64,000 nt of DNA from Diprion similis (taxonomy: Eukaryota > Arthropoda > Insecta > Hymenoptera > Diprionidae). Shown here in pieces: positions 14,281 through 43,718 of this stretch (position 1 is its first letter; each line of letters starts with the position of its first letter). The notes beneath the pieces are model-generated. The model saw only the letters and a list, made by a program, of their open reading frames with translations, was not told where the DNA came from and did no database searches. The DNA is taken from contig NC_060106.1 of NCBI RefSeq assembly GCF_021155765.1, forward strand, positions 379,501 through 443,500, read 5' to 3'. The position numbers and the translations under genes were made by a program.

Positions 14281-14586
14281 TGTTTTTTGCTAGATTAGAT
14301 TAGGTGAGGATGGGAGTAAAATACGAATCACAGTTTTTCTTAACAAGAAACCAAAATTAACAATTTATTCAATAGGATAGAAATTGCTTGACGAGGTTCG
14401 AAGTTTACATCCTCGCTCAAGCTCTACAAGAGTGTAACTGAGGTAAACAGGCATTTGCTGCCTTGAGAGTGTACGTAGTGAATGTGTTTGTGTGGTTGCG
14501 TGTGTGGGTTTGTTTTGATAATTTTAGGAAACAGTTCACGTGTGATTTCGAGCTCTCTCTTATGAATTCGGTGAGAATGCTGAACA
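14281..14586 (-). repeat. BEL 3' LTR (306 bp)
   Basis: Reads TGTTTTTTGCTAGATTAG on the plus strand and ends GAGAATGCTGAACA, so both strands are bounded by TG...CA. Further copies lie at 26355-26661, 28254-28559 (inverted) and 31610-31916. They differ by only a few bases, for example AAACAGGC here against AAACAAGGC in the others. Confidence 0.93.
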
Positions 14587-14658
14587 TTCCGCCCGCCTCG
14601 TCGGAGGACGAAATTGAGTGTCGAGTGCTCAGCGTACTATGAAATGGTTTTTTTTTGT

Positions 14659-15873: not shown

Positions 15874-15905
15874 GCGGAGATGACCTTTGTCGTCGAGAAG
15901 GGGGC

Positions 15906-18900
15906 TCAGTTGGAGAAGTTGCCCTTTCGAAGGCGTTTGTCCGGATTCGAGAAGACGAATTTCAGTTTTAAAATTGCGGTTTTGTCAACTCGAATGAGAC
16001 GCAGGAGGGCGGCAGCGATTTCAGATGGCGTGAGTGCTGGAGTTGGATTGCGTTTACCATTTTTTGTGAGATTGACACGACAACACCAAGCAGTGATTCT
16101 TGATAACCTTGTCAAGTTCGAGTACTTGGTGAGGAGATGGTATGGCTCGTCAATTTGTTCGGCGACGGCGTGAGACGTTAAACGAGTTTCTGGAAGATCA
16201 TTCGGAGGTTTACGAGGACTGGACGGCCAGTTGTTAGCATCTTCGTGCAACCATTCAGGGCCTCTCCACCAGAGAGAGTGGTCTTGAAGGTCCGATGCGA
16301 GAACTCCTCGAGATGCGCAATCTGCCGGATTGCTTGCTGATTCAACGTGGTGCCAAATAGCATTCGGGAGAGCAAGTTGAATGTCAGCTACACGATTAGC
16401 TACGTAGGTTGTCCACTTGGTCGGGTGTGCACGTATCCACGCAAGTGTTATCGTCGAGTCTGACCAAAGGTGAACCGGACAATCGAGTTTGAGCATAGCA
16501 AGGATAGTTTTAGCTAGTCGCGTGACGAGGTTAGCAGCACAAAGTTCTAATCGCGGCAGGGAAACTTGTTTGACCGGAGCGACTTTCGTTTTGGACGATA
16601 CGAGAGTAACCGAAGATTGTCCATCACGAATAATGCGCAAATACATTACAGCAGCATAAGCAAGCTGTGACGCGTCCCCGAAACCATGAAGCTCGACAGT
16701 CTGTTGCGATGAGTTTAATCCGAGCCATCGAGGAATGCGGAAATTCGAGATTGCTGGTAGATCTGAATGAATTTCGATCCAACGGTTGACTTGTTCGTCA
16801 GGTAAAGCGTCATCCCATTCGAGTTTAAGCAGCCACAGGGATTGCATGAATATTTTTGCGAGTATAACAACTGGTGCTAGCCATCCGAGCGGGTCGAAGA
16901 GTTGAGCAATACGCGACAACACATTTCTTTTTGTTAGAGGATGCTGAAGCTTGGTAGTGTTTAACTGGAAAAGAAAAGAGTCACTGCTCGATTGCCATGA
17001 TAGCCCCAGCATGTGGAAGGTTTCCGGTTGCCAGACGATCGACGTTGTCGTGGCTCTGACTTCAGGCGTTAGATGTTCAAGAAGTTCTGGAGTGTTTGAG
17101 GTCCATTTCCGTAAAGTGAAACCGCCCGCCTTGAGCAACTCGATTAATTCGTTTTGCTTGATCAAGGCACTGGTGATGTCGTCAGCACCAGATAAAACGT
17201 CATCGACGTAGACGTCGCTTGAAAGTGCTGAGGCTCCAATTGGGAAGCGATCCCTTTCATCATGAGCGAGTTGACGGAGCACTCTTATTGCGAGGAAGGG
17301 AGCACACGTGAGGCCGTACGTTACCGTGCGACGACGGTAAGTATTAATTTCCAATGAGGAGTCCTTTCTCCAGCAAATTCGTTGAAGATCACGATCCTCT
17401 TCATGCACCAATACTTGTCTATACATTTTTTCCATATCGGCGGAAAACACGACTGCGTGCGCTCTCCATCGAAGTAAGATGCTGACGAGTTCAGGCAAAA
17501 TCTTTGGGCCCACGTGAAGATGATCATTTAGAGAATGTCCGGCGTTAGTTTTCTGCGATCCGTTGAAAACGACTCGAAGCTTTGTAGTAGTACTTGACTC
17601 TCGCATTACACCGTGATGCGGTAGATAGTAGGACGTTTTTGGTATTGAGCTCGTTGACGAAATGACTTCCATGTGGTTTAGAGTTTCATACTCTGTCATG
17701 AAGGCAGAGTAGGCTTCGAAGAATTTGGTGTCCTGTGAGAAGCGATGTTCCATTCGGTGTAGCATTTTCGTTGCCGGAATGTAGGAGTCACCTAGAGAGT
17801 CAAGAGGTTTCTTTAGAGGTAGACGTACTGTGTATCTACCATCTTGCTCACGAGAGTGTGTGTTGATGAAATGATTTTCGCATTCGGCTTCGTCTGGACG
17901 AAGACTCGGATGCGGAGGTGCCATCTCTTCTTGTTCCCAGAATCGCTGGAGAGATAAAGAAAGAGAATTGTCGAGCGAGATTTGCATGCTGTTCAGTGGT
18001 AGGCAATTAGGCGAGTTTGCTGCAATTTGGCCAGAGATTATCCAGCCTAATTGCGTGTTTTGAGCCACCGGAGTATTAGCGTTTCCCTTTCGCACTCCAT
18101 CGAGAATTAGTTGTGCGTAAACGTCAGCACCAAGTAATAGCTCAATGGGACGTGTTGAAGAATAGTCTGGGTCAGCTAAAGGGAGGCCATCAAGGTGCTT
18201 CCATCGTGATGTCAGTATGAGACTCGGTGGTTGATAGGCTGTCAATTTCGGGAGAACGAGGGCGCTCACTTGACACTTAAAGTCCGAATTTACGCGAGAC
18301 GTTAGCCAGAGAGAAACAGATCCTCGTGATGTCGTAGCAGCGTTGGCTCCTATGCCAGTAATAATTACCGACGTGGATGATCGCGCGACATTCATTCGTT
18401 GAGCGAGAGATTCGGAGATAAATGTTGCTTCAGACCCTTGGTCGATGAGCGCGCGCACTAAAAATTTGTTATCGCTTGAAGTCGAGACGTCGACGAGAGC
18501 AGTGGCAAGAAGAATGCGAGTTGATGCAGCTCTTGGTGCTTCAGCGTTGTGAGTTGCGAGTTGAGTTGACGTCGAGGTAGTTGGTCTCTCAGGTGGTTGC
18601 TTAGCACCAATTGAGTTGACCGTTGTAGCCGGTGATGAGTAAGAGTCATGAAGAGTGGTATGATGCTTGCCCTTGCAGGCTTGACACGTTTTACGAGAAC
18701 GACAGTCGCGAGCGTAGTGGTGCCCAAGGCAGTTTAGGCACAATTTGTTTTCTAGCACGAAGGACTTTCGGTCTTCAGCCGTTTTAGCACGAAAGGCTTC
18801 GCAGAAGAGAACGAAATGTCCTTCTTGGCATAAAGCGCATTTCTGATTGGTTGGAGAGGTGCTTGATACGTGAGATTTGACTCCCTGATGAGGCGACGAG

Positions 18901-19859
18901 CTGGATGGTTTTTTCGAGTTACGAACAATGCTTGAGGGTGCGGTTTTCGTAGATGCTGAGCTTTCGCGAGGTTTTGTCGCTCCTTCGAGGGCCTCGATGG
19001 AGCAAATGCGATTCTCGAGAAAGGATTGCAGTTCCTTGAAAGTAGATGGTTCCTTTTTTGCTCCGACAGAGGCTTCCCACTCGCGCCGAGATTGCTTATC
19101 TAACTTTTGCACTGTCATATACACGATAAAATCGTCGCAATTGTCAACGGGGCGTCCTAATGCCCTCAATGCACCGAGTGCATTGGAGGTTCCGTTGTAG
19201 AGGACCTTCAGATCCGAGGAGGACTCCGAGGTCATAGCTGGGAGTGAGAAAAGGCTAGCAATTTGAGCATTGGTTAATAAGCGAGTTTTGTCATATCTAG
19301 AGGAAAGAAGCTGCCACGCGACTTCAAAATTGTCAGCAGTGGAAGGCACTGAAGCAATTAGGGAAGAGGCTTCCTTTGTTAGATTAGTTTTTAGATAGTG
19401 CATTCGCTCTATTGGCGACAACGGTGCGTCAATCACCATAGACTTGAAGAGATCGCGAAAGTTTAGCCATTCGGTAAAGTCTCCCGAGAATTTTGGGATA
19501 TTGATTTTTGGCAGTGATTGTCGTACTATTGGAATGGGGTCATTTCTTGCAACTTCGGGAGGTCTGTCAACAAATACACGAAGATAGTCCAATAACTTTC
19601 CTTTTTGCGTGAGATAAATTTCTTCCGTTGTTGAGAAAAAATCTTCTGTAAAGTACCTCATTTTCATGTCGTCGCTTGATGCTTCATTTTCAATTTTATC
19701 GTGATCATTTTGGAATTGTCTCCATTTTTCTTCGAGTGCCTGAAGTCGGGCTTCAAGTACTCCTTGAGTTATATTTGCTTGACCGAGCCTTTTGGTATTG
19801 TCGTGAGTACGAGAAATTTGCCCAGAGAGTCTGGCTTGCTTCTCCATGCGTGACTGCAT
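15906..19859 (-). CDS. gag-pol: BEL/Pao gag-pol polyprotein, frame-broken at its end
   Basis: 1317 residues starting at the first ATG of the leader. In order: a coiled-coil gag N-terminus; a Pao-type gag region around PKINIPKFSGDFTEWLNFRD; zinc knuckles (CALCQEGHFVLFC and CLNCLGHHYARDC); an aspartic protease with ALIDQGSEATFIS; reverse transcriptase with FSADMEKMYRQV and the YVDD active site; RNase H with HGFGDASQLAYAA, SLPRLELCAA and LWSDSTITLAW. The frame then shifts at about 15985, where one A is missing relative to the inverted copy at 26.86 kb, and it ends in 30 out-of-frame residues. This copy therefore cannot make a normal integrase fusion. Confidence 0.92.
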   Translation of the reverse strand: MQSRMEKQARLSGQISRTHDNTKRLGQANITQGVLEARLQALEEKWRQFQNDHDKIENEASSDDMKMRYFTEDFFSTTEEIYLTQKGKLLDYLRVFVDRPPEVARNDPIPIVRQSLPKINIPKFSGDFTEWLNFRDLFKSMVIDAPLSPIERMHYLKTNLTKEASSLIASVPSTADNFEVAWQLLSSRYDKTRLLTNAQIASLFSLPAMTSESSSDLKVLYNGTSNALGALRALGRPVDNCDDFIVYMTVQKLDKQSRREWEASVGAKKEPSTFKELQSFLENRICSIEALEGATKPRESSASTKTAPSSIVRNSKKPSSSSPHQGVKSHVSSTSPTNQKCALCQEGHFVLFCEAFRAKTAEDRKSFVLENKLCLNCLGHHYARDCRSRKTCQACKGKHHTTLHDSYSSPATTVNSIGAKQPPERPTTSTSTQLATHNAEAPRAASTRILLATALVDVSTSSDNKFLVRALIDQGSEATFISESLAQRMNVARSSTSVIITGIGANAATTSRGSVSLWLTSRVNSDFKCQVSALVLPKLTAYQPPSLILTSRWKHLDGLPLADPDYSSTRPIELLLGADVYAQLILDGVRKGNANTPVAQNTQLGWIISGQIAANSPNCLPLNSMQISLDNSLSLSLQRFWEQEEMAPPHPSLRPDEAECENHFINTHSREQDGRYTVRLPLKKPLDSLGDSYIPATKMLHRMEHRFSQDTKFFEAYSAFMTEYETLNHMEVISSTSSIPKTSYYLPHHGVMRESSTTTKLRVVFNGSQKTNAGHSLNDHLHVGPKILPELVSILLRWRAHAVVFSADMEKMYRQVLVHEEDRDLQRICWRKDSSLEINTYRRRTVTYGLTCAPFLAIRVLRQLAHDERDRFPIGASALSSDVYVDDVLSGADDITSALIKQNELIELLKAGGFTLRKWTSNTPELLEHLTPEVRATTTSIVWQPETFHMLGLSWQSSSDSFLFQLNTTKLQHPLTKRNVLSRIAQLFDPLGWLAPVVILAKIFMQSLWLLKLEWDDALPDEQVNRWIEIHSDLPAISNFRIPRWLGLNSSQQTVELHGFGDASQLAYAAVMYLRIIRDGQSSVTLVSSKTKVAPVKQVSLPRLELCAANLVTRLAKTILAMLKLDCPVHLWSDSTITLAWIRAHPTKWTTYVANRVADIQLALPNAIWHHVESASNPADCASRGVLASDLQDHSLWWRGPEWLHEDANNWPSSPRKPPNDLPETRLTSHAVAEQIDEPYHLLTKYSNLTRLSRITAWCCRVNLTKNGKRNPTPALTPSEIAAALLRLIRVDKTAILKLKFVFSNPDKRLRKGNFSN

Positions 19860-20721
19860 AATTTGAGAGAAGGAAACAAACTGCGACCGGAATTCTAATC
19901 GTGATAACAGTCTGAGATCGCGAAACGTGAAAAAAACCGAGACAGCTGCGACGTCAGCTGAGCGCGCGAGTAAGAGAAGGAGACGGGTAATAGTAGTAGT
20001 GGGAGCGATGCAGGGGGGGAAACATGCTTACGGCCGGTCGGTCCCACGTTTTAGTTCGGTACAAAGTGGGATCTAAGGTTGGTGGCGCTGGTGCTGCACC
20101 GACGCCATGACGACTGACCGACGCCAAGCCATGCGCCATATTTCTTTTCCATTCTTTTCGTATCAAGCGTTGATCGTGGGTGTTTTGTGCGAAAAGAATA
20201 TTTCCGAGCCTCAAAAGATTTTCCAAAGTTGATTTTCTTCTTCTTTGACTAAGATATTCGTATTCTTAGTATATTTAGTCTTATCCGTGAATTGTATTTT
20301 GTTTTTTATAAGAAAAGTAAGTGTTTAAGTTAATTCTAGAAATTTTATTCATCAGTTTGTAGGTTATTTACTTAATTCACTTCATTCTACGTTAACAATT
20401 TAGGAAATAGATTGCATCAAATATTTTTGTATTAGATTATATTAAGCATTTTTGTTGATAGTCTTAATATTACACTGATAAGTTAGTCAACGTTACTCTA
20501 GTTTTACGATTTAGAATTAGTATTATACTGATAGGTTAGTTTATGTCATTCCAACTTCTCAGTTAAGGTATTTGATATAATATTCGGCATTTCAAATTAG
20601 GCTTCTAGTAATAAATTGAATATTGTGTAGTATTTAGCCAAGTATAATTTTTGTTAAGTTGTGTAAGGTTGATTTAATAATAGGAGTTTCATATATATAT
20701 ATATATATATTATATATAAAT

Positions 20722-23700
20722 ATGAGTAAAGGCCAAGCTTGTGTTGTGCGTGGGTGCACGAGTACAAAGCGGAGCCTCAGACATCGTTTTCCTAAAGATC
20801 CAGTGAAATCGTACGTCTGGTCATGTGCTGTCCAAAATCTTGGATTACAGCAGATGAGTGCCGAACAACGTACCAAATTTTTTGTCTGTCACCAGCACTT
20901 TCCTGCGGAAGCCTATAAAGTTACTTCCGTTAGGTTTGAATTATTCATATATTTTTAAATACACAATTTTATCCATGCATAGTGTTTCTCTAATAGTTTG
21001 AATTGATATTTCATAGATGCCAATTGGCAGATACTGCAATACCTTGCCAGAACATACCCATAGAATCAACCCCGATCATAGAAGTCAGCGAGAAACAGTC
21101 ATCGGATGGACATCTACAACATGTAGCACCAGGTAAGGTACCTCTGGAAATAATCGATAATGCCAAGCATTCTTCCACAGGTCCTTCGATTCAAGATGAG
21201 GATTTCCATGGAATATCAGATTCTTCCGAAAAACCCAAAGAGACTTCACTAAATACAACCAAACAGCCTCTCCATCATCTACGAGATGACCAAACTTCCG
21301 AGAGTATGGAAAGCTGTCTTTCTGCTGGCTCTTCTACGAGAAACGAAATCACACAACCGACAATTCCGAAAGCAAGTATTCTTGGCTCTACCACACGGCA
21401 AGCGTTTCTGGATCCGAAGGCTAAAGCACTATACAAGAAAGCAGTTCTGTTCAAAAAAAAATATGACCGACTAAGACGGGAATTCAAGAAACATCGCAGG
21501 GACATGGATCAAACAACAACAGCCCAGTTAGCAGAGAAGTTTACAGCATCGCTCAGCCGGGTTCAAAAACAATTTTGGGATATGCTGCTCCGAAATTCCA
21601 ACAATGCACCAAGCGTAAGTTTTATACATTTGCTTGCATAATATAATTCAGCTGAATATATTGTACCCTTCTTACTCAATATTAATTATCGTCCATTCTA
21701 AACTATACGAAAAATTTCTTCCCAAAATAATGAAACTACTTAGTGTCTGCATATTTATAAATATGTATTTGTTTTCAGGCAAGACGGTTCACGGTAGAAC
21801 AACGTTTATTTTGTTTATCCTTGTATAAACAATCACCAAGCTGCTACCGCTTTCTCTCGAGCTTCTTTCCTCTACCAAGCCGTACGACGCTGATGAAACT
21901 TCTTTGCCAAGTTCCGGTAAAGACCGGGATCATGGATGAAGTCATCCAGCATCTACGAGACAAAGCCGAGGGACTGAAAGACGATCGAGAGAAAGCGTGT
22001 ATTCTGATATGGGATGAGATTTCATTAGAGCCCCATATTAAATATGATGCCGCTGCAGACAAGATTGTGGGATTGGAGGATTGGGGAACAAAGAGAACCC
22101 AAAAAATTGCAGACCATTGTCTCGTGTTTATGTTGAAAGGAATTCAGTCAGGATGGAAAGTTCCAATTTCATATAATTTTTGCGAATCCCAAACTTTGGG
22201 TCCTCAACTGATGTGCTGCATCAAAGAAGTGGTTCGGGCAGTGCAGACGACAGGAATGCAGATTATTGCATCAGTCTGCGATCAAGGCACCTCAAACGTT
22301 TCAGCCATTGAGAATCTGCTGCTTGAAACTAACAGGAAGCGTTTTCATCATGGCGAACACCCAGGTTCGAAATAACATATTTATCACATTTTTTTTTCTG
22401 TATAAAATACCATTTGTTTCAAAATAATTATACCTACATTGAATTCTCAATTGATGCATTGTTCACAGGAAATGCGATCGAGATTGGAACCACAAAATTC
22501 TTTCCCCTTTACGATGTTCCTCATTTATTGAAAGGAATGAGGAACAATCTCCTTACCAAAGACTTAGAAGTGGACATACATAGCAACCAGATCAGATCAA
22601 AATTTGCAAGCTGGGATATTATACAGCTTGCATACAAGATCGATGTCAATGGCCCGAGCAGGCAACTGAAGAAATTGTCTGACGAACACATCGTAATTGA
22701 AAAGATAAAGAAAATGAAAGTCAAATATGCTGCTCAAGTTTTTAGCGAGACACTGGCCAACTATATAGAGTTCACATCATCAATTTCAGGTAAGTGATCA
22801 TCTGTAAGAATTGATTTGTAAAGTAACTCGTGATATTTAATTAAATTCGTTCAAAAATCTACAGGGCACGTCAATACTAGGATCGGACCACTCAAAATGC
22901 CCAAAGCCGAGGGACTTGAGACTGCTCGGGTGTTGAAGTTTTTTAATAATTTGTTTGACTCCCTTAACGGACATAAGAAAAATTTAGGTTCTGGGCTGAA
23001 GGGACTGGTTACTGCAACGAGTGAGCACCATGCATTCTGGATGGAGGCCTGCCAACGGCTTAGAGGCATGCGCTTCGTAAAGAAAAACTCCAAGCAATCA
23101 AATTCCAAGACCGATGTTCCGACAATGCGTAATTGGGTGAAAACAATTACTTCTGTGCAGAGTATCTGGAAGGTCGTAAGGGCAATGGGATTTGATTGCT
23201 TGGAGACGCGTCACCTTAACCAGGATTGTTTGGAAAACTTTTTCGGGCAAATGCGCAGTCATGGCAGGCGAAATATTAACCCAACTTGCAATCAATTCCA
23301 AGGATCATTCAAAGCAGCGTTAATTAACAATTTGACATCAAAGCACTCCGTTGGTGCAAATTGTGAAAACTTGTACGACGGTGACACTCTTACGCCTCTC
23401 CGACGATTCGTGGAGCTCGCTAACAAAATGAGGCATCCTGTGGATATTCCACAAGAGTCTTCAAGGAACACAGATGCCGAATTGAGAATTGCAGAGCTCT
23501 CAGGTAATTACAAAATAAATATTACTGTACTTCTGTCCCAAAAAGTACAGATTCTAAAGTATGAATCTTAATATTTTTCAATAGATTCCGGGGAGATAAC
23601 TCTTCGTCAACCGACCACGTAGAAGAAGTGTCTGGAATGATTGCAGCTACTGTCAAAAAATTATCGAATTCAGACGAGGTTAAAGGATGTGAACAATGCA

Positions 23701-23952
23701 GCGAGGAAATCCAGACAATAAAAACAGACGATGTGGACTTCCGCAGAATATATAACATTTTCGTAAAAAGAATCTGCCACATATGCCAGGAAACACAGGT
23801 TTGAACACTTTTAATAACAGGGTTATCCGATCAAGCAATTTCGCACTTCAAGTGCACCAGACACTCTGCTGAACGGATGAAGGCTGTCATCGCATTCTGT
23901 GGACGTTACTTCCTGGAGCTGTGGGCTAATCATCTTAATGCTATTCTTACAG
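20722..23952 (+). pseudogene. THAP/P-element transposase gene with introns and one nonsense codon
   Basis: Exons inferred from splice sites and frame: 20722-20933, 21017-21614, 21779-22364, 22469-22789, 22865-23503 and 23596-23952, with phases that join correctly. Exon 1 starts at the ATG after a TATATATAAAT tract and encodes a THAP finger with the ligands CVVRGC and CHQHF; TAIP in exon 2 closes it. Lysine-rich coiled coil sits in exon 2. The catalytic acids are likely in LIWDEISLEPH, VCDQGTSN and DCLENFFGQMRSHG. The GTP-binding insertion region, about 150 residues longer than in the gene at 4.4-6.8 kb, is present. One in-frame TGA at 23802-23804 interrupts the C-terminal region, which continues in frame (FKCTRHSAERM, FCGRYFLELWANHLN). 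The exon 6 acceptor (GGGGAG) is weak. The copy is probably recently inactivated. Confidence 0.82.
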
Positions 23953-24149
23953 GTAAACGCACTATCTTAGTGCAGAATGATTATTCTATAGAGCGACAGG
24001 CCTATATAAAGGCTCAAAAGCGCTTACATAAAAAAAACAGGTGCTTTTAAATCATTTTAAATGCACAAGCTTGGCATATAAGTGCCGAATAAACAATAAC
24101 GCTTAAGCGTATACACTAAAATATATGGGTGAAATCCGTTGCACCTTAA

Positions 24150-24750
24150 GGTGCCGCTGATGTGACTTGAAAATATCAAATCGTGACGTCATAAATACGT
24201 GCAGCGCCTCTGAACGTTGAACGGTGAACTAAGGCCGCTGATTTCATTGGCTTGTTCTGTTAGATCCAACCAATGATGTCAGTTACAGATCGGAACATAC
24301 TTCTTGTGGACCGTAAACGGGCTGCTGTCACATGAAAAACGCGTATACGAATCGAGCCATGTTTACAAAGAAATAACTGATAGTACATGATAGTATAAAT
24401 TTTCCCGGATAACGTGAGTGCTTTTGTACGTGTGAATCTCCCTGGCGAGGGTGAAAGAAATTGTGGAACAGTGCAATCAATGAATATTCAACATGCGGTA
24501 GCTCCGATCGGCCATGTTTGCTGTCGCGTGATTTTATTCACTTCATCATTCTTTATTATAAACATTATCAGCGATTTGCCTGAGCAGTGACTGAGATTCA
24601 CACGTACACTATTATTCAAGCTACGATTTAAAATATTTCCGAGTAAGATTCATACTCTCGTTATCGCAGGATTCGTATAGGCGTTTTCACCCAATTTCGC
24701 CGCTTCTGACGTCACGAAATATATATATGACATGCCAGGTCAGCGGGGCC
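24150..24750 (+). mobile_element. TTAA-flanked MITE, copy 1 (601 bp)
   Basis: TTAA lies directly outside both ends (24146-24149 and 24751-24754). The ends are GGTGCCGCTGA and TCAGCGGGGCC, an imperfect 11-bp inverted repeat. Palindromic TGACGTCA-type sites lie near both ends (about 24184 and 24708). No coding frame. A reverse-oriented copy, about 90% alike by eye, is at 50473-51063. TTAA duplications are typical of piggyBac-type transposition, but the termini do not match the usual CCC start. Confidence 0.8.
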
Positions 24751-24754
24751 TTAA

Positions 24755-25956
24755 AGCTGAAATGATATTTGAGCATTTATGCACAAATCAACGGATTGGA
24801 TCCACTACACCTAAATGCTGAACATAACAAAGACGTCGTCGTGGGAATTGCTTCAGAAATTTCATGTTCGTATACTCCACGTAATAAATTAGTTCCTCAA
24901 TTCTAACTACAGCCTTACTCAATACTTTTGTTACGAGTTTCAGAAAGTAACCATGGGGTAGGTACGTGTACCTCAACTGATTCATTTTGACGAATTACGC
25001 TGATGACGAGCCAGGAAAATAGGGAAGCAGATTTCGCAGTCTGGATTTTGGAGAGTAAAATCATATTATTCCGTACGTATTAAAAATATATATATATATA
25101 TATCATGATAAACTTTTCAAAGCGAAATAATAATAAATTCGCAATGGCAAATATGAAGAATAAATACATACATGGATGTAACTTTTCAACAACAACTATG
25201 AGTTAACACTTATATTTACTAAACAATTTCGTTACTTAAATGTTTCAGTGACACACTGATATGGGACTGTTTACGGCGTTGAAGCACCACAGTCTTTATG
25301 TATATATTGAATAATATTATAACAACCCATTAATTACAAAATTTTATAAAAAATATGTATTGCGCTCATTGAGAAAGATAATTATTTGAAATAGAATGTA
25401 GTTTAAATGTAATAAGATAAGGTTTTAGAATAGATTTATATATAATATCGTATATTATTATTTATAATTTTGTCAGCTGGAAATTAATTAAACTTATTTG
25501 TATAGGTCGATTCCCGATGTGTATAATGTTTCATTAATTGATTATTAAAATGTAATTCTTCAGTGAAAATATCGAAATTCTAACAATTGATAAATTTAGT
25601 TCACATATATTTCATAATTCCAATAAATTATCTAGCACAAAGGAATTATGTATTACATTATTCTAGAATAAGCCAACACAATCAAATTTAAAATAAATTC
25701 GTTGATGTGGTAACCAATTCAATTTCCGACTTATTCTTTTCCCGTCACTATGGCGTTGACTGAATCTTCAGTCAACGATTGCCGATTCGAGATCTAGGTT
25801 AGGTAGAGTAGACCAGCTTGGAGCAAGTTTTTAAATAAAGCGGGTCGTGTATGTGAACGGCGCCATTTTGAAATTTAGTTCAGACAGAGTGGGTCATAGC
25901 GCAGATGGCGCGCTAAACAGGGGACCGAAATTTAACATGGTAGGTTTCCGCCCCTG
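24755..25956. other. AT-rich 3' part of the P-like element, no gene
   Basis: Non-coding DNA downstream of the transposase gene with a short (TA)n run near 25083-25103. A perfect small hairpin GTTGACTGA/TCAGTCAAC lies at about 25753-25774. No open frame of note. Confidence 0.6.
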
Positions 25957-26333
25957 GAGCGATGGCACACCGCGTGGCGAGGGTCTATAGTCTCTTGCCA
26001 CACAAGGCCACAGCGACACGAGCACGAAGAGCGCTTCACTTGTATTAGTTTCGTAGCGACGCGCACACACGTAACCGATACACTTCGTTGGAACAACGAT
26101 ACAGGACCCCAATACCAGCGATACTGGGGGGAGCACGCACTACACGCGGACACTGATAGATACGATAGCGATGAGACACGAGACGCGAACACACTCGCAC
26201 AACTATATCACCACGCACCAACACTACCGCGACCCGTATGTGTGAGAGCGACCGAGAGTGTCGATGAGGTTGACGAGATTTTCGTTTCGAAATAATCGAC
26301 ACTTTTCCGAGTTTCTGTTCGTGTATTCACTCC

Positions 26334-26352
26334 AATCCGGCTCGAAGGACCA
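26334..26352 (-). promoter_or_regulatory. Primer-binding site for tRNA-Tyr (BEL element)
   Basis: On the minus strand this reads TGGTCCTTCGAGCCGGATT, two bases after the LTR end. It is the complement of the 3' end of an animal tRNA-Tyr including CCA. It primes minus-strand DNA synthesis. Confidence 0.85.
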
Positions 26353-26354
26353 AA

Positions 26355-26661
26355 TGTTTTTTGCTAGATTAGATTAGGTGAGGATGGGAGTAAAATACGA
26401 ATCACAGTTTTTCTTAACAAGAAACCAAAATTAACAATTTATTCAATAGGATAGAAATTGCTTGACGAGGTTCGAAGTTTACATCCTCGCTCAAGCTCTA
26501 CAAGAGTGTAACTGAGGTAAACAAGGCATTTGCTGCCTTGAGAGTGTACGTAGTGAATGTGTTTGTGTGGTTGTGTGTGTGGGTTTGTTTTGATAATTTT
26601 AGGAAACAGTTCACGTGTGATTTCGAGCTCTCTTTTATGAATTCGGTGAGAATGCTGAACA
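26355..26661 (-). repeat. BEL LTR (307 bp) shared by two joined elements
   Basis: Its left side carries the PBS and leader of the full-length BEL copy, so it acts as that copy's 5' LTR. Its right side carries TTCCGCCCGCC (26662-26672), the purine-tract complement that normally lies inside a 3' LTR. One LTR thus serves as 5' LTR of one unit and 3' LTR of the next. Confidence 0.88.
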
Positions 26662-28181
26662 TTCCGCCCGCCGTCGCCGAACAAATTGACGAGCCATACC
26701 ATCTCCTCACCAAGTACTCGAACTTGACAAGGTTATCAAGAATCACTGCTTGGTGTTGTCGTGTCAATCTCACAAAAAATGGTAAACGCAATCCAACTCC
26801 AGCACTCACGCCATCTGAAATCGCTGCCGCCCTCCTGCGTCTCATTCGAGTTGAACAAAACCGCAATTTTAAAACTGAAATTCGTCTTCTCGAATCCGGA
26901 CAAACGCCTTCGAAAGGGCAACTTCTCCAACTGAGCCCCCTTCTCGACGACAAAGGTCATCTCCGCGTGGGCGGACGGCTAAAAAACTCACTTCTCGATC
27001 CTGATGAGAAACACCCTTACATTCTACCAAGCCGATCTCCATTGACTAAGTTACTCATCGAACATTATCATAAGGAAACTCTTCACGGCGGAGTGCAGCT
27101 CACTCTCGCCACCCTCCGACAACGATACTGGGTGATTGGTGGTCGCACTGCAGTGAAAGCGGTCATACACAGATGTCTTATTTGCGTGCGACACCGAGCT
27201 ACGACAGCGACTCAAATCATGGGAAATCTTCCGAAGGCTCGAGTCACCCGAGCTCGACCCTTCCTCCACTCTGGAGTAGATTACGCTGGTCCAATCTACC
27301 TTCAAACTGCGAAAGGAAGGGGACACAAATCGTACAAGGCTTACATTGCCGTGTTCGTTTGCTTTTCGACAAGAGCGGTACACCTTGAAGCCGTATCCGA
27401 CTACACCACTGATAGCTTCTTGGCGGCATTCCGGCGATTTGTTTCGCGCAGAGGAAAGTGCGCTACACTTACAAGTGATTGCGGAACAAATTTTGTAGGA
27501 GCAGACGCTGAACTACGAGCTCTCCTTGCTACTACTTCTGCTGAATCCGAGAAAATCGCGAATATTCTCGCCAACGATGGAACGTTGTGGAAGTTTAACC
27601 CCCCAGCGGCTCCGCACTTCGGCGGACTCTGGGAAGCAGCGGTGAAATCGACAAAACATCATCTTCGACGAGTGCTAGGCGAGAACACCTTGACTTTCGA
27701 GGAAATGACTACACTACTGACACAAGTGGAAGCTTGTCTCAACTCTCGTCCACTCCAAGCTCTCACAGACGATCCTGACGATCTGTCAGCGCTCACGCCA
27801 GCTCATTTTTTAATAGGTGAACCCCTCACTGCCGTCCCGGAACCGTCTCTCGTCAACTTACCTCACTCACGCCTATCAAGATTTCAGCTCATTCAGCAAA
27901 TGCAACGTCACTTCTGGAATCGATGGTCATCTGAGTATCTGCATACTCTGCAGTCCCGGCACAAGTGGCAACAACCTCAGCCTTCTCTGCAAATCGGTGA
28001 CCTCGTTCTTATAAAAAACGAACAATTACCACCGACTAAGTGGCCTTTAGCTCGTGTCACTAACGTTCATTCGGGAGAAGATAAAAAAATCCGCGTTGCT
28101 ACTGTTAAGACAGCAACATCATCATTAACTCGCCCAGTTGTGAAGCTTTGCCCTTTACTCAAAAGTGACGAAGCCCAATAA
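26637..28181 (+). CDS. Inverted BEL integrase fragment fused in frame to LTR sequence
   Basis: The open frame starts in the LTR (ATG at 26637, MNSVRMLN), crosses the junction at about 26668 and continues as BEL pol from AEQIDEPYHLLTKYSN to its natural end. It contains the complete integrase (HYHKETLHGG, HRCLICVRH, DYAGPIYLQ, TSDCGTNFVGAD, GGLWEAAVKSTKHH) and the C-terminal region. It matches 14659-16168 in inverse orientation, apparently near-identically. It keeps the A that is missing near 15985 in the full-length copy, so integrase is in frame here while protease and reverse transcriptase are absent. Whether any start codon in this antisense LTR is used is unknown. Confidence 0.75.
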   Translation: MNSVRMLNIPPAVAEQIDEPYHLLTKYSNLTRLSRITAWCCRVNLTKNGKRNPTPALTPSEIAAALLRLIRVEQNRNFKTEIRLLESGQTPSKGQLLQLSPLLDDKGHLRVGGRLKNSLLDPDEKHPYILPSRSPLTKLLIEHYHKETLHGGVQLTLATLRQRYWVIGGRTAVKAVIHRCLICVRHRATTATQIMGNLPKARVTRARPFLHSGVDYAGPIYLQTAKGRGHKSYKAYIAVFVCFSTRAVHLEAVSDYTTDSFLAAFRRFVSRRGKCATLTSDCGTNFVGADAELRALLATTSAESEKIANILANDGTLWKFNPPAAPHFGGLWEAAVKSTKHHLRRVLGENTLTFEEMTTLLTQVEACLNSRPLQALTDDPDDLSALTPAHFLIGEPLTAVPEPSLVNLPHSRLSRFQLIQQMQRHFWNRWSSEYLHTLQSRHKWQQPQPSLQIGDLVLIKNEQLPPTKWPLARVTNVHSGEDKKIRVATVKTATSSLTRPVVKLCPLLKSDEAQ

Positions 28182-28253
28182 ACAAAAAAAAACCATTTCA
28201 TAGTACGCTGAGCACTCGACACTCAATTTCGTCCTCCGACGAGGCGGGCGGAA

Positions 28254-28559
28254 TGTTCAGCATTCTCACCGAATTCATAAGAGAGAGCTCGAAATCACAC
28301 GTGAACTGTTTCCTAAAATTATCAAAACAAACCCACACACGCAACCACACAAACACATTCACTACGTACACTCTCAAGGCAGCAAATGCCTGTTTACCTC
28401 AGTTACACTCTTGTAGAGCTTGAGCGAGGATGTAAACTTCGAACCTCGTCAAGCAATTTCTATCCTATTGAATAAATTGTTAATTTTGGTTTCTTGTTAA
28501 GAAAAACTGTGATTCGTATTTTACTCCCATCCTCACCTAATCTAATCTAGCAAAAAACA
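28254..28559 (+). repeat. BEL LTR in inverted orientation (306 bp)
   Basis: Starts TGTTCAGCATTCTC after the polypurine tract GGCGGGCGGAA and ends GCAAAAAACA. Only TTTG, the first four bases of the expected post-LTR sequence, follows before unrelated viral sequence begins. Confidence 0.9.
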
Positions 28560-28717
28560 TTTGCTAAATTATTTATCCAAGAGAAATGGATGAAATTATG
28601 TCATGATCCGTCTAGAAGAAAGTTAGAATAGAGGTTTCCTGTATCATAGATGTGATTATTTCACCTCAGAATTTTATTGACACTATTATAGATGTGATTA
28701 TTTCACTTCAAAACATT

Positions 28718-29068
28718 ATGCGTCTTATCTTACTATTACTTCTTACTTCAACAATGGATATCGAATCTTCCAAGTTGGCAGCTAGGTTCGTAAGAGCGTC
28801 ACTAACCATTCAAATTGAGTTGGCACAAAACGTATCTGATGCTTTGCGAACAGATACCTATCTATTTGATGGGAACAATCTCTTCCTTGATGCTGAAACG
28901 AAGATTGTTAATAACATCAGATATCTCAAAAAAGGAAATAAAATAGCTGTCTCATCTCGAGCCGCGCAACTAACATTTAATACCGGAAACACCTATATGC
29001 AGTACGTGACTGATACCACCAACATATCTCCTTCTGATAATTCTGTAATTCTTAAGCGAAAAAGTTAA
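28718..29068 (+). CDS. Viral ORF of unknown function (117 residues)
   Basis: The first ATG of the frame is at 28718 (MRLILLLLLTSTMDIESS); an in-frame ATG at 28754 would remove the hydrophobic start. A short leucine run could act as a signal or membrane segment. The rest is polar with no recognisable domain. It lies 82 bases before the next viral ORF in the same orientation, as expected for subgenomic-RNA genes. Upstream, a GATGTGATTATTTCAC motif is repeated at about 28649 and 28691. I do not recognise the protein; its viral origin is inferred from position between the LTR junction and the clear viral genes. Confidence 0.5.
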   Translation: MRLILLLLLTSTMDIESSKLAARFVRASLTIQIELAQNVSDALRTDTYLFDGNNLFLDAETKIVNNIRYLKKGNKIAVSSRAAQLTFNTGNTYMQYVTDTTNISPSDNSVILKRKS

Positions 29069-29150
29069 ATTCTGTGTGTAGGACTAATGGATCCTACGTT
29101 AATATATTCTTTTGTTTGTATTTTGTTGTATGTTGTTGAAGTAATTCAGT

Positions 29151-29963
29151 ATGAATCCTATGATTTTGGGTGTTAATATTCCAGATGACTTTCCTTCTTC
29201 CCGTAAGTCGTTGAGATTCTTATCCGGTAAAAGATTCTGGGACTTATTTTGTATTTACGATCTTTACGCATACTCGCCTAAAATGGCACACGCGTTGTTC
29301 GGCGATGTTGTACCTTCTAAATTCAGGATTGAAGACATCACTTCAATACCTGTGTGTATCGATAATGTGGTATTTTCCCTTGAAGAGCGTGTAGTTAACA
29401 AGCTCGCGTTCTCGAACTATCGGTACACTTGTGACGTTGACGATACTGAATATGATCATCTCAACACCTTGAGCAGCGTTGTTGATGACGCTGTTGTGCA
29501 TTTTGATATTTGGCAAACCATAATGCAATACTGCAATTGCAGTACTAAATTACGTATGTTTACATCTGTCCCGGAAGCTCTCGATTATTCTGATCCTAAC
29601 TTCCATTTGCATATATTTTCTTCTGCCCGGCTATCTGATCATGTTCTTGCACCTTTGAACTCTCTCACTAAAGTAACTAAATCTATAAGAGCACCGGCTA
29701 AGACGCGATGCATTTGCCAGACTATTTTCTTTAATAATTTCGGATATTTTTATGCTAGAAGACACAGGTTGGCTTACATTTTCAATAGAGTCAGTGTTTC
29801 ATTGAAGGTAGATGATGAACCGGTTATTGATATAGCCACATTAGTGGATTACCATAACGATATATCGGCCGGTGATGAAATGATAACAAGTGAAATGTTG
29901 GATCTTCTGCATGACATGGATGAAGAGGAGGTGGCTGATTCACACTGGTCAGATGAAGATTGA
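29151..29963 (+). CDS. Viral ORF of unknown function (270 residues)
   Basis: Open frame from ATG 29151 to a stop at 29961-29963. The protein is globular in character, with aromatic and cysteine residues in the middle and a strongly acidic tail (DMDEEEVADSHWSDED). No catalytic motif was recognised. It lies 42 bases before the coat-protein ORF in the same direction, a compact arrangement typical of plant-virus-like RNA genomes. A movement- or accessory-protein role is possible for its position, but nothing in the sequence shows it. Confidence 0.55.
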   Translation: MNPMILGVNIPDDFPSSRKSLRFLSGKRFWDLFCIYDLYAYSPKMAHALFGDVVPSKFRIEDITSIPVCIDNVVFSLEERVVNKLAFSNYRYTCDVDDTEYDHLNTLSSVVDDAVVHFDIWQTIMQYCNCSTKLRMFTSVPEALDYSDPNFHLHIFSSARLSDHVLAPLNSLTKVTKSIRAPAKTRCICQTIFFNNFGYFYARRHRLAYIFNRVSVSLKVDDEPVIDIATLVDYHNDISAGDEMITSEMLDLLHDMDEEEVADSHWSDED

Positions 29964-30005
29964 TACATAGTCGGTTTGGGCCAGATATGCTCGTACTAGT
30001 TTATT

Positions 30006-30512
30006 ATGGATATACTTCAGAGATTTGCGAACTTAACATCAAACATGAGCAGGTATACAAACTGGAACGATACCCATAAACTTTTACGTAGACAACCTTT
30101 CGTACCTCTTGATGATTTTATCACCTTTATCAGGGAGACTATGTCATCTTCTTTCTACATTAAAACCAATAGAGATCGTATCCGTACGGCCTACCAGAGA
30201 ATGAGTCAAGGAGTTGCTCCTTTTCGTGAAGATCTTCGTTTCCCGGACGATTTTTACGTCCACATCAGCGACACAGGCGTCGAGACCTGGTTAACGCAAC
30301 TTGTTCATTCAGCTGATGTACCTGATAGGCAGATAGAAAGAAGAAACGACGGTTCCTTTGATTCCTCCCTTTCCGACGCCAAAAAGTCTCATGATTCCGC
30401 ACTGGATTCCCTAAATCGTTTAATTACCAATCTTGATATAAATTCCCTGTCCGCAAAGGGTATACATAATAGAGATACCTTTGAGAGAACATTCAAATTA
30501 ATTTGGCAGTAA
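30006..30512 (+). CDS. Tobamovirus-type (Virgaviridae) coat protein, endogenised
   Basis: 168 residues from ATG 30006. The central LRFPDDFYVHI, the helix AKKSHDSALDSLNRLITNLD and the C-terminal NRDTFERTFKLIW follow the order and spacing of the helical-rod coat protein family of tobamovirus-like viruses; the length is also normal for that family (about 160-180). The usual role is RNA encapsidation as a helical subunit. It is the last ORF before a structured 3' UTR, the usual place for this gene. The frame is complete with no stops. The assignment rests on pattern recognition, not on a search. Confidence 0.72.
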   Translation: MDILQRFANLTSNMSRYTNWNDTHKLLRRQPFVPLDDFITFIRETMSSSFYIKTNRDRIRTAYQRMSQGVAPFREDLRFPDDFYVHISDTGVETWLTQLVHSADVPDRQIERRNDGSFDSSLSDAKKSHDSALDSLNRLITNLDINSLSAKGIHNRDTFERTFKLIWQ

Positions 30513-30653
30513 TGCAATAATCGCCCTCTAGCGTATGAATGATTGAGTGTATGTAAATCTAATACGTAAGTATTAGACCGAGAAATCCCTGCCGCGGGGT
30601 GTACAATCTCGGGAATGATGTAGCCTATTGTAGAGGCTACATAAGCGGCACCA
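30513..30653 (+). ncRNA. Viral 3' UTR with tRNA-like hairpins, ending CCA
   Basis: Between the coat-protein stop and the helicase fragment lie three perfect hairpins: AATAC-GTAA-GTATT (30561-30574), CCGAGA...TCTCGG (30578-30583 with 30607-30612) and GTAGCC...GGCTAC (30620-30625 with 30635-30640). The segment then reads GCGGCACCA (30645-30653). The layout resembles the tRNA-like 3' end of virga-type genomes. Helicase coding begins at the next base, so this looks like the true genomic 3' terminus. Confidence 0.6.
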
Positions 30654-30659
30654 GCCCTT

Positions 30660-31622
30660 ATGGTGCATGCTGGTACTATTGGATATATAGCTGCTATTAC
30701 TAAATGTAAAAAAATGATCCTATTGGGAGACGACAACCAAATTCCATTTATAGACAGGGATCAAATATGCGATATGAGATATAGTAAGGTCGAAAATTTT
30801 TGTGGTGTTTCACGTGAACTTTCGAAATCTTATAGGTGTCCTCAAGATGTGTGCTATGCTTTAAAGGGTAAATATGATAATATTTATTCCGCGTCCGACG
30901 TGTGCAAATCCATGAGGATTTTGGCTTATTCCGGTACCAAAATCCCTAAAATTGAGGGAGCGCTATATCAAGTATATTTTCAATCAGATAAAGAAATGTT
31001 AATTAGAGAAGGTTTTGATAAAATAGGTAAGGTGCTAACGACCCATGAGTCTCAAGGTTTAACTTTTGATCACGTCATAGTAATACGCACTAGTGCAAAA
31101 GCATTGAAATTGTATGATAGTCAGGAACACGCCACTGTTGCCATAAGCAGACATAGAAAGACCTTTATCTATATGACCGATACATCTGACGCGATTACCG
31201 CTCCCGTCCGAAAAGCAGAACTAAGTGCTGATATGATATCAAAGTGGAATAATGAGAGGAAGCAAACGGACGTGCCAGCGCTTTTGACTGCTGGTTATAC
31301 TCCGGCAGAATTGATTTTGAAGAGAGTTGACAATGGTGATACGTGTGAGGAAGCTATAAAGAACCTACCACATGTCACCCATTCACCGCTTGTACCTGTA
31401 ACTATACTTCCTGACACTTATACACCGTTTGTGCGCGCGTCTCTCAGGACACGGCAAGATTCTGATCTGATGTATTTACAGGCCTGGTATGATGACAAAA
31501 TGCCGGGACATATTGAGACAATTCTGGAGTATGACCAAGACATAATAGAGTACAGTAATTTGACTTTAGCTATAGATCGTATAGATATAATCCGGCTCGA
31601 AGGACCAAATGTTTTTTGCTAG
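30660..31622 (+). CDS. Fragment of viral replicase: superfamily 1 helicase
   Basis: The coding sequence of viral origin runs from about 30654 to 31588; the last ten codons before the stop come from the PBS and LTR. Helicase motifs visible are III (ILLGDDNQIP), IV (KSYRCP), V (TTHESQGLTFDHV) and VI (VAISRHRKTFIY). Motif I and the acidic motif II lie upstream of the break and are missing. The approximately 130 residues after motif VI would link to the polymerase, which is absent. ATG 30660 is an internal methionine, not a natural start. In the virus this region unwinds RNA during replication; here it is a truncated cDNA. Confidence 0.8.
   Translation: MVHAGTIGYIAAITKCKKMILLGDDNQIPFIDRDQICDMRYSKVENFCGVSRELSKSYRCPQDVCYALKGKYDNIYSASDVCKSMRILAYSGTKIPKIEGALYQVYFQSDKEMLIREGFDKIGKVLTTHESQGLTFDHVIVIRTSAKALKLYDSQEHATVAISRHRKTFIYMTDTSDAITAPVRKAELSADMISKWNNERKQTDVPALLTAGYTPAELILKRVDNGDTCEEAIKNLPHVTHSPLVPVTILPDTYTPFVRASLRTRQDSDLMYLQAWYDDKMPGHIETILEYDQDIIEYSNLTLAIDRIDIIRLEGPNVFC
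31589..31607 (-). promoter_or_regulatory. tRNA-Tyr primer-binding site at the virus/LTR junction
   Basis: Same sequence as at 26334-26352 (minus strand TGGTCCTTCGAGCCGGATT). The match to the BEL element stops exactly at the end of the PBS; the next bases are viral instead of the BEL leader. Confidence 0.85.
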
Positions 31623-31916
31623 ATTAGATTAGGTGAGGATGGGAGTAAAATACGAATCACAGTTTTTCTTAACAAGAAACCAAAATTAACAATTTATTCA
31701 ATAGGATAGAAATTGCTTGACGAGGTTCGAAGTTTACATCCTCGCTCAAGCTCTACAAGAGTGTAACTGAGGTAAACAAGGCATTTGCTGCCTTGAGAGT
31801 GTACGTAGTGAATGTGTTTGTGTGGTTGTGTGTGTGGGTTTGTTTTGATAATTTTAGGAAACAGTTCACGTGTGATTTCGAGCTCTCTCTTATGAATTCG
31901 GTGAGAATGCTGAACA
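31610..31916 (-). repeat. BEL LTR at the right end of the chimeric element (307 bp)
   Basis: Starts TGTTTTTTGCTAGATTAG and ends GAGAATGCTGAACA on the plus strand, then continues into unrelated DNA (GTTTCTTCAATAC). It carries the PBS on its left and nothing element-derived on its right, so it is the outer 5' LTR of the chimera. Confidence 0.92.
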
Positions 31917-32930
31917 GTTTCTTCAATACACAGAGAACCTATTCACTCGTGTGATAACTTGCTGATTATCCATGAAAAGAATTTACATCCATGACACAAT
32001 TGAATTTGAGTTCAAATATCAGGAGCATAATAACATTTTTTGTTGTGCTTTGTTGTGAGGTAGATAAAAAAAAATCGATTTGTTATTTGAATACAGTTAT
32101 ACTGGTAGATGTATGTGATACTTTATGTATAGTAGACTGGTTTTTGGGAGAATATTCGCAGTCAGGGTCAGTAACTAGTCACTTTTCTTACTATTAGCCC
32201 CCTTTGTTATTAGAGTCACTTTACTATGACGTTTTCGGTTCAAAAGACCATGATCACGATTTTCGGTGCCATCGCTAAATTTTTATTCCCATCAAATCAC
32301 GTTTCCGGATGCACAGGGCCGTAAGTGCCCTGTCTGTCTGTCTAACAAGCTCCCTTGATGATTATCAACGAAGCGACTTGAGGTGCAAATTCACAAACTT
32401 GCAGGAGGATTTCAGAACCCAATAATCGACATGAAAAATTGCCATGATCCGTTTGATTAAAACTTCTGGTTCGACCGGAAATAAGTTGATTTTCAATGTT
32501 TTCCCAATAAATCTGTACCTTCTCTTTGTTACTGCTTGAAAAAAATAGTCACGTTTTTTCGAGTTGATTGACAACTTGCGAGAATTTTTTATAAGCTTTA
32601 AAGTTTTTAGATTTTTCTCGCCACTTTTCCTGGAATACTATTCGACTTCGTTGCCAAGTCTTGTCAGTTCCAAATTTTTAATTGAACCGTCTTAGAGGTC
32701 ATCGCAGAAGTTTGTCGGACAGACTGATAAGCTATTCCCGTTTCATGGCGATGACAGGAATCGCGAAATAACCTATTTCTTTCCGCTTGGTTTTGACATA
32801 ATGGTCTTAGGAATGTCTAGGAAGCATGAGAAAATCTGAATAATCGAAATTGAAAGAATTTTTTCAAAAAACTATGGCATTAGACAAACGATGTCTTAGA
32901 CGACGAAATGTCAAACAAAATGCTGCTTAA
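31917..32930. other. Intergenic DNA, nothing recognisable
   Basis: Only short open frames; a CTGTCTGTCTGTCT run near 32329-32342. No terminal repeats matched. Confidence 0.5.
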
Positions 32931-42004: not shown

Positions 42005-43718
42005 ATGCACCCCGCGAAATATTCGTCACGTACACCACCAGAAAAAAAGAATTTTTACTGTGTTGTACAAGGGTGTGAAAGTTCATAAAAAAAAACACAG
42101 AGTTGAGCTTTCACGCCTTTCCAAAAATTGGTCAGCGCTCCGTTTACGTTAAAAATTATTTTGATAATGTTGAAACGATTGACCGTTTTAAAGCATGGGC
42201 AAAGGCTTTAAAAATTAAGACAGTGACGGGTGAAATGAGAGTGTGTGCATTGCACTTTACCAAGGAGGATTATTTATTTTCTGGTGAGTAAAAGAAATCG
42301 TAGTATAACATAACCTACAAATGACGAAACTCCAAGTGACTGACTTTTTCATGACAAAATTAATTCTTACAGATGTTGCAGCAAAAAAGCATTTTTTAAA
42401 GAAGAACGCTATCCCTTCTGTTAATTTGCCATCTAGCAGCGGTCTCATGCAATCTGCGAAAAAAAAAGAAATTGATCGTCAACGATGTGAGAGACGTTTC
42501 AGACGAAATAACGTCAAGAGGCTCGATACAATTGCATCTGAAAAAGAGACCATTCAACTCAAGAAGTGCGATCCCAGTTTCCAAGAAGAGATAGGAGAAA
42601 AATTGGAGGTGATAACGAGTGATTTGCATGACCCTGGAGATGTCTCAGCGCAGCGGTTACCGGCACAATCCTTTGATCATTCGTTACATCAGTCGCTTGG
42701 AGACTCAATTGACAGTGGTGTTTTAACTAATGATGTCCTTACGCATTGTAACAAGTCAATCACTCCTGAGTTGACTAAAGATATTGGAGTTCAAGTCAAA
42801 ACGAGCGATATCTTGCCTAATTTTTTGGATTTGTTTCCCACTGACAGTGCTTTGAGCACTGCCACAGGAATAGAATCATATGCGATATTAGACTGTATTG
42901 TCAATCTTGTCGGCATAACGTTACAAAAACATCCAGATCAATATAATTCAAGAATGAGTTTAAGAAACAAAGTGGTCATGACGTATGTAAAGTTAAAACA
43001 AAATATAACATACAGCTTTTTGGCCGGCTTGTTTCAATATTACACAGCACAGCACTGTCAAAGAGTCTTCCTAGAAATGATCCAATTGTTGAGTGAGAGC
43101 TTAAAAGTAGCAATAGAGTGGCCTTCAAAAAAAGAAATATCGCGAAATTTGCCACAATGTTTTGAGGGATTTGAAAATACCCGAGCAGTTATCGATTGTA
43201 CTGAAATTTTCATTCAAAGACCGTCAAAGCTCTGCTGTCAAGTAATTTGTTATTCTCATTACAAAAAGTCTGAGACATTCAAAGTTATGACTGCAGTTAC
43301 ACCCGCAGGAAATATTTCGTACATTTCAAACCCTTATGGAGGCAGAGTCTCTGACACCGATATTTTTGAGCAATGTGATTTAAAAGACTTGTTGGAGCCA
43401 GGGGATGACATTATGGTTGATCGTGGTTTTTTAATTGATAAAATGTGTGCCGAACGTGGTTGGAAGCTCATAAGACCACCGTTTTTGAAGAAAAAAAAAC
43501 AATTTTCTAAATCTGAATCTTTACTGACATGCAATATTGCGAAAGCTAGAGTTCATGTTGAAAGATCGAATCAGAGAATAAAAACTTCTAGTATTTTAGG
43601 AGATACAATGCCTGTAAGTCTTCTCCCATTCGCTGGAGAAATATTTACAATCATATGTGCCACAATAAATCTCGGTTCTCCCATCTTGGCAAAGGATAAA
43701 TTCATGAAAGACCAATGA
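42005..43718 (+). CDS. ISL2EU transposase: THAP finger plus HARBI1-like DDE domain
   Basis: Two exons, about 42005-42283 and 42373-43718, joined by a phase-1 GT-AG intron. Exon 1 encodes a THAP finger: CVVQGC, FHAFPK, the conserved W in FKAWAKAL and CALHF; AIPSV in exon 2 closes it. The frame shifts between CVVQGC and FHAFPK, around 42078-42095 next to a run of nine A. Exon 2 carries a spacer and then the catalytic domain with Asp in VIDCTEIFIQRPSK, the RVSDTDIFEQC motif, Asp in MVDRGFLIDKMCAE and Glu in VHVERSNQRIK. It acts in the nucleus on the element's ends. The catalytic half is intact; the THAP start is broken unless the A-run is misread. Confidence 0.82.

Follow-up and report, generated by a model that had tools for sequence, protein, structure and literature searches.

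The closest known case to the locus described here is eBxnv-1, which the consulted sections of PMC5177903 present as a nodavirus-like endogenous viral element (EVE) in a BEL/Pao long terminal repeat (LTR) element of Bursaphelenchus xylophilus. As its origin, the authors suggest copy-choice on the part of the element's reverse transcriptase, and they name one earlier natural example. The same sections refer to recombinants of lymphocytic choriomeningitis virus and intracisternal A-particle (LCMV-IAP; Geuking 2009) and to a grapevine potyvirus sequence (Tanne and Sela 2005), in which RNA virus cDNA is likewise joined to a retrotransposon. The virga-like superfamily 1 (SF1) helicase also occurs in insect retrotransposons, including Ty1/Copia fusions in Aedes aegypti and Leptopilina boulardi; in the consulted parts of PMC5563155 and PMC6338049 the fusions involve mainly long interspersed nuclear elements (LINEs) or Copia elements. 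Virga/nege-like endogenous elements of insects (Kondo et al., as cited in the part of PMC6338049 considered; ant EVE survey PMC6540820, also in part) belong to the same broad virus group as the sequence analysed here. This sequence lies in a 64,000-nt window of the Diprion similis genome (GCF_021155765.1, contig NC_060106.1; G000:C2:379501-443500), where a block at window positions 26355-31916 carries virga-like viral cDNA between two LTRs of a BEL/Pao element. The block adjoins a BEL/Pao copy, hereafter called B (26661-14281), and the two together are referred to as the composite (14281-31916). Further copies were searched for in the whole assembly (269 Mb, 60 contigs).

Like eBxnv-1, as the latter is described in the sections of PMC5177903 considered, the block consists of plus-strand RNA virus cDNA between two BEL/Pao LTRs with a primer binding site (PBS) and a polypurine tract (PPT), and is present as a single copy. 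According to these sections, eBxnv-1 differs in that a viral open reading frame (ORF) is found together with pol in a degenerate element. In the block, by contrast, the virus is antisense and scrambled, the inverted 3' end that accompanies it is that of the neighbouring element, one LTR is shared, and the virus meets the PBS at a strong-stop junction. The block also departs from the helicase-retrotransposon fusions as these are described in part in PMC5563155 and PMC6338049, since it belongs to BEL/Pao and its antisense virus includes a coat protein gene and a 3' untranslated region (UTR). At the level of titles and abstract openings, none of the papers listed in a literature search dealt with a BEL/Pao element that carries virga-like cDNA and a strong-stop junction. 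The new features of the block are the virus group, the antisense scrambled cargo, the adjacent donor or twin, and the readable strong-stop junction.

The explanation that we favour, with a probability of about 0.7, is that a BEL/Pao reverse transcriptase met a virga-like viral RNA and produced the block as a germline chimera. Its anatomy is best followed on the minus strand, from 31916 to 26355. The outer 5' LTR (LTR31, 31610-31916, minus strand) is 307 bp long, is bounded by TGTT...AACA and is separated by a spacer of 2 nt from an 18-nt PBS for tRNA-Tyr (31590-31607, minus strand), which is joined directly at its end to the antisense virus. An inverted LTR-integrase piece follows, then an 11-nt PPT end (26662-26672, minus strand) and the 3' LTR (LTR26, 26355-26661, minus strand). 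LTR31 and LTR26 agree at 306 of 307 sites. The 11 nt of the PPT end are the sequence that precedes both other 3' LTR ends in the window; their purine run is broken by a C and the tract is identified by position only. The last four of them (26669-26672) overlap with the integrase side. LTRs, PBS and PPT are thus all present in cis, as a first-pass annotation made from the sequence alone had proposed: its limits for the block are exact, and the two LTRs in direct orientation, the tRNA-Tyr PBS beside the right one, the PPT beside the left one and a virga-like cargo of about 3 kb were all confirmed. The block is not free-standing, however. LTR26 is simultaneously the 5' LTR of B and is followed by a second PBS and then by the BEL/Pao element itself.

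Six host tRNA-Tyr genes (GTA, intron-bearing) carry the first 15 nt matching the PBS, including A73. They were recovered with a relaxed pattern (n=6; a stricter first pattern gave 0), and ARAGORN types all six as tRNA-Tyr when introns are allowed and types them poorly when they are not. The CCA end of a tRNA is added after transcription, so that the 15 gene-encoded nt and CCA together make up the 18-nt PBS, which therefore spans A59-A76 and is complementary to the tRNA at 18 of 18 positions. The virus joins the PBS at the A59/A58 border. Homology between the LTR31 end and 26334-26661 accordingly extends over 328 nt, made up of 307 of LTR, 2 of spacer, 18 of PBS and a further shared nt, and contains a single mismatch. 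In retroviral and Ty biology, the 1-methyladenosine at position 58 of the primer (m1A58) halts reverse transcriptase, and because of this stop the junction falls where plus-strand strong-stop DNA is expected to end. The examined passages of a Ty3 review (PMC5371799) do not state the m1A58 stop. If breakpoints were evenly spread over an element of 6 kb, we calculate that a break at the A58 border would be expected by chance in about 2 of 6000 cases. The junction supports template switching, which the first-pass annotation had invoked in general terms, as the most likely origin of the retrotransposon-virus chimera.

The viral part occupies 28560-31589 and all its frames are read on the plus strand. 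It starts with a short open stretch (28560-28753), read as the putative C-terminus of the RNA-dependent RNA polymerase (RdRp). Apart from this presumed C-terminal end, the RdRp is absent. Two 36-nt direct repeats at 28642 and 28684 (28642-28719), 86% alike, lie upstream of the next ORF and could be copies of a viral subgenomic promoter. An ORF of 104 aa with a WIV domain follows (28754-29068; WIV_dom PF22532, E 5e-14), then an ORF of 270 aa which matched no Pfam family (29151-29963) and an ORF of 168 aa for a coat protein like that of tobacco mosaic virus (TMV) (30006-30512; TMV_coat PF00721, E 9e-26). Of the 11 distinct PDB sequences matched by the coat protein, 8eaw (named 'Capsid protein') ranks best at E 1e-13; the coats of TMV and cucumber green mottle mosaic virus are matched at E 3e-6 to 4e-6. 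In the protein database, neither the coat protein (24 candidates) nor the 270-aa ORF (506 candidates) gave a relative, no candidate scoring, and a search of viral contigs with the coat protein gave four pattern matches, none confirmed.

Downstream of the coat gene, 30513-30653 is a putative viral 3' UTR, strongly base-paired in prediction and carrying CCA at its junction with the last viral piece. An Rfam scan of 28500-31950 yielded no family for it and one match far below the cut-off. The last piece, 30654-31589, encodes a virga-like SF1 helicase from just past the motif II 'DE' into the post-helicase region (Viral_helicase1, E 9e-22). Its best match is P0001, a protein from a public contig (43% identity over the whole piece), which has DEALM at the site where the helicase piece opens with ALM, so that the break falls directly behind the two acidic residues of motif II. 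All four frames are open: 104 codons for the WIV ORF, 270 for the unassigned ORF, 168 for the coat and 312 for the helicase piece. Among 5000 mononucleotide shuffles of each, the WIV frame stayed open in 8 and the other three in 0. Virga genomes carry the helicase first, then the RdRp and then the coat gene. The order found in the block (coat, 3' UTR, helicase) is not genomic, and we therefore regard the viral part as two RNA pieces joined together, the folded stretch ending in CCA probably being the 3' terminus of one of them. By its homology to virga-like proteins, the viral part classes as an endogenous non-retroviral virga/nege-like RNA virus element in a host contig.

The inverted LTR-integrase piece (26673-28559) had also been noticed in the first-pass annotation, and here the analysis adds its source: it is a copy of the 3' end of B. 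It comprises an integrase region (H2C2, rve, DUF5641) extending to the PPT (26673-28253, plus strand) and an LTR (LTR28, 28254-28559, plus strand) that faces the viral ORFs. Aligned with the 3' end of B over 1891 bp, the piece shows no substitution and a single length difference of 1 bp. The three other copies of the element, L001, L002 and L003, differ from it by 16, 13 and 15 substitutions and by 1, 2 and 1 gap positions respectively (L003 compared in two parts around its extra sequence). The piece therefore derives from B or from its immediate parent. LTR28 ends exactly at the U5 terminus, and the TTTG behind it matches the usual LTR/PBS border over 4 nt. Entry of the inverted LTR into the viral cDNA by autointegration or through integrase was considered and rejected, as TTTGC, the 5 bp following LTR28, does not recur beside any of the six other LTRs compared.

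The LTRs of the composite fall into two types which differ at alignment positions 88 and 138. Type T1 includes LTR28 and the 3' LTR of B (LTR14, 14281-14586, minus strand), between which no difference is observed, and type T2 includes LTR31 and LTR26. All six LTRs of L001-L003 agree with T2 at both positions. LTR28 carries an initiator (Inr)-like motif at position 146 and AATAAA at 218. The Inr-like TCAGTT is located at 28399 in LTR28 and at 31770 in LTR31, and both differences between the types would fall in U3 if this motif marks the start of R. LTR28 and LTR31 face into the viral part from opposite sides.

Element B continues on the minus strand from its PBS (26335-26352) through the leader/gag region and pol (Peptidase_A17, DUF1759, RVT_1, integrase) to its 3' LTR (14281-26334). 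Its pol frame is broken once, by a 1-bp length change. PF05380 is matched at E 1e-51, PF03564, PF17921 and PF18701 score above their cut-offs, and RVT_1 (29.4 bits against 29.6) and rve (29.4 against 32.6) fall just below theirs. By pol and LTRs, B classes as a BEL/Pao element, but, with no target duplication around it, not as a clean insertion. The gag region of B is interrupted by a P-element-like insertion (20011-25955, plus strand) flanked by a 9-bp direct repeat (20002-20010 and 25956-25964), with TNP-like RNase H N and C domains, a GTP-binding domain and broken frames. Being nested in B, the insert is younger than B, and its empty position is traversed by L001 and L003.

The LTR sequence occurs at 11 places in the genome, 4 in the window and 7 elsewhere, with 98-100% identity at 10 of them and 74% at one. 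L001 is co-linear with B; in L002 about 0.35 kb is missing near gag, and in L003 a loss of about 1 kb is accompanied by about 0.6 kb of extra sequence. Their LTR pairs differ at 3, 0 and 2 of 307 sites respectively. The family is thus young and of low copy number, with about five near-identical LTR-bounded copies in the assembly (the block, B and L001-L003). L001 and L003 are flanked by 5-bp target duplications (GTAGT and AGTAG). L002 (G000:C10:693114-699189) has identical LTRs and intact ends, yet no target duplication.

Under the favoured explanation, reverse transcription could have proceeded as follows, the particle being its presumed site. Plus-strand strong-stop DNA, consisting of the LTR and the 18 nt of PBS copied from tRNA-Tyr, would have missed its normal transfer, and its 3' end would have been extended on viral plus-strand RNA inside the helicase region. 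The enzyme would then have switched to a second viral RNA, entering at its 3' CCA end and copying as far as the end of the RdRp gene. A further switch to the U5/PBS border of an element RNA, at the TTTG match, would have put it on the usual minus-strand path, by way of U5-R, U3 and PPT, as far as the integrase gene; from there it would have returned, at a 4-nt match, to a PPT-LTR end. The product would have been joined to B, or made together with it. Reverse transcription accounts for the strong-stop border, for a U5 end that is exact and carries a 4-nt match to the LTR/PBS border, for the 4 nt shared at the PPT junction and for viral pieces joined end to end; the order of the switches is our inference.

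Several observations weigh against this explanation. At the viral/helicase and helicase/PBS junctions no more than about 1 nt is shared, and searches that covered no collection of exogenous insect RNA viruses gave no close relative from which the true viral sequence at these two points could be fixed (best match 43%). Two LTR types in one product need either two packaged RNAs or a later recombination. No duplication of 4, 5 or 6 bp is present around the composite (14281-31916), the block (26355-31916), B (14281-26661) or LTR28. A weak coat-like match elsewhere in the assembly, L014, leaves room for an older related insertion. The first-pass annotation had looked to target duplications around each part as the mark of independent insertions; none was found, so the chimera stands on this count, but the usual signature of one clean insertion is absent too. 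The composite is flanked by AAGAA on the left and GTTTC on the right. A search for the empty site (40 of 81 and 40 of 188 candidates scored) matched 31917-32325 and 14067-14280 only to themselves; farther out, repeats are 66-85% identical on the right and reach 97% and over on the left.

How the block and B would have come to share an LTR can be pictured in two ways, to which we give similar weight, each falling somewhat short of an even chance. In a two-step version, the chimera would have inserted, or its cDNA recombined, beside B, and LTR-LTR recombination would have left one shared LTR and removed the inner duplications. This fits the missing duplication at both outer ends (AAGAA, GTTTC) and the fact that LTR26 has the U3 type of the block, unlike the 3' LTR of B. 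However, it places two insertions of the same orientation side by side in a family of about five copies, unless B attracted the cDNA by homology, and had an LTR circle simply entered B, B's own duplication would still be present, yet it is absent. Homologous entry of such a circle was in fact rejected, the left flank of B (AAGAA) not being found to the right of LTR31 (GTTTC). In a one-shot version, the block and B would be one 11.7-kb product of a particle containing two element RNAs (T1 and T2) and viral RNA, inserted once. Adjacency, the shared LTR, the near-identity of the inverted piece and the small divergence (1 of 307 sites; one 1-bp difference in 1891) would all be explained, but many switches are required and the target duplication is absent, although L002 is an intact copy without one. 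That the 11.7-kb composite (without the P-element insert) is a single molecule from one aberrant reverse transcription, with strong-stop DNA primed on viral RNA, end-to-end viral jumps and a return to the strand-transfer path, is put forward tentatively.

A rearrangement at the DNA level is improbable. B would have lain beside or inside an older virus insertion, around which a local inverted duplication, by template switching during replication, copied the ends of B. That the inverted piece copies the neighbour itself agrees with such an event, and the 4-nt microhomologies are compatible with it; yet on this account neither a breakpoint at A58 of the tRNA nor the scrambled order of the virus would be expected, and no second copy of the viral DNA is present among the matches listed, L014 being a weak coat-like match only. 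An assembly artefact or chimeric molecule, which four near-identical LTRs at one locus might invite, is very improbable given a 22.8-Mb contig that starts with a TTAGG-type repeat, a window with no N and copies that bear distinct diagnostic differences. The repeat, with CCTAA counted 799 times in the first 4 kb of the contig, is of a kind present in many insects.

The first-pass annotation had also regarded the block as a potentially mobile unit, of which further copies with other flanks might exist. This part is not supported. Among the matches listed, viral DNA is found at one place in the 269 Mb, as is the viral helicase family, and no second LTR-virus chimera is present. The coat family is found in the block and in L014 (G000:C1:3855818-3855973), where 52 model positions are matched at 27.1 bits (cut-off 26.5) in an open frame of 105 aa; L014 may be another, older viral remnant or a chance match. 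Packaging signals usually lie in the leader behind the PBS, and in the block this leader is replaced by virus. With its left LTR serving as the 5' LTR of the neighbour, no duplication and one copy, the block finds no support as a separate mobile unit: it has the cis signals of a mobile non-autonomous LTR element, with no copy at another site among the matches listed.

Two other transposase loci were noted in the window. THAP and P-element-type transposase domains are found in an open frame of 795 aa (4436-6820, minus strand), and a DDE_Tnp_4 transposase (42309-43715, plus strand) adjoins a YqaJ-type recombinase ORF on the opposite strand (43988-44905, minus strand).

The entry of RNA viruses into genomes is usually inferred from old and decayed insertions. 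The present copy is young (a difference at 1 of 307 LTR sites, 4 of 4 viral frames open) and its donor or a near twin lies next to it. A junction where a defined intermediate, plus-strand strong-stop DNA, is expected to end makes the mechanism of capture testable and suggests that the 3' end of this DNA, rather than internal copy choice, may be an entry point for foreign RNA. If the composite is a single molecule, it would stand as a germline fossil of how non-retroviral cDNA was captured, with nearly all the switch points still readable. For the host, LTR31 is antisense and LTR28 sense to the virus, and we propose that convergent transcripts from them could give viral double-stranded RNA or precursors of PIWI-interacting RNA (piRNA). 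The opposing LTRs therefore suggest a candidate ready-made source of antiviral small RNA.

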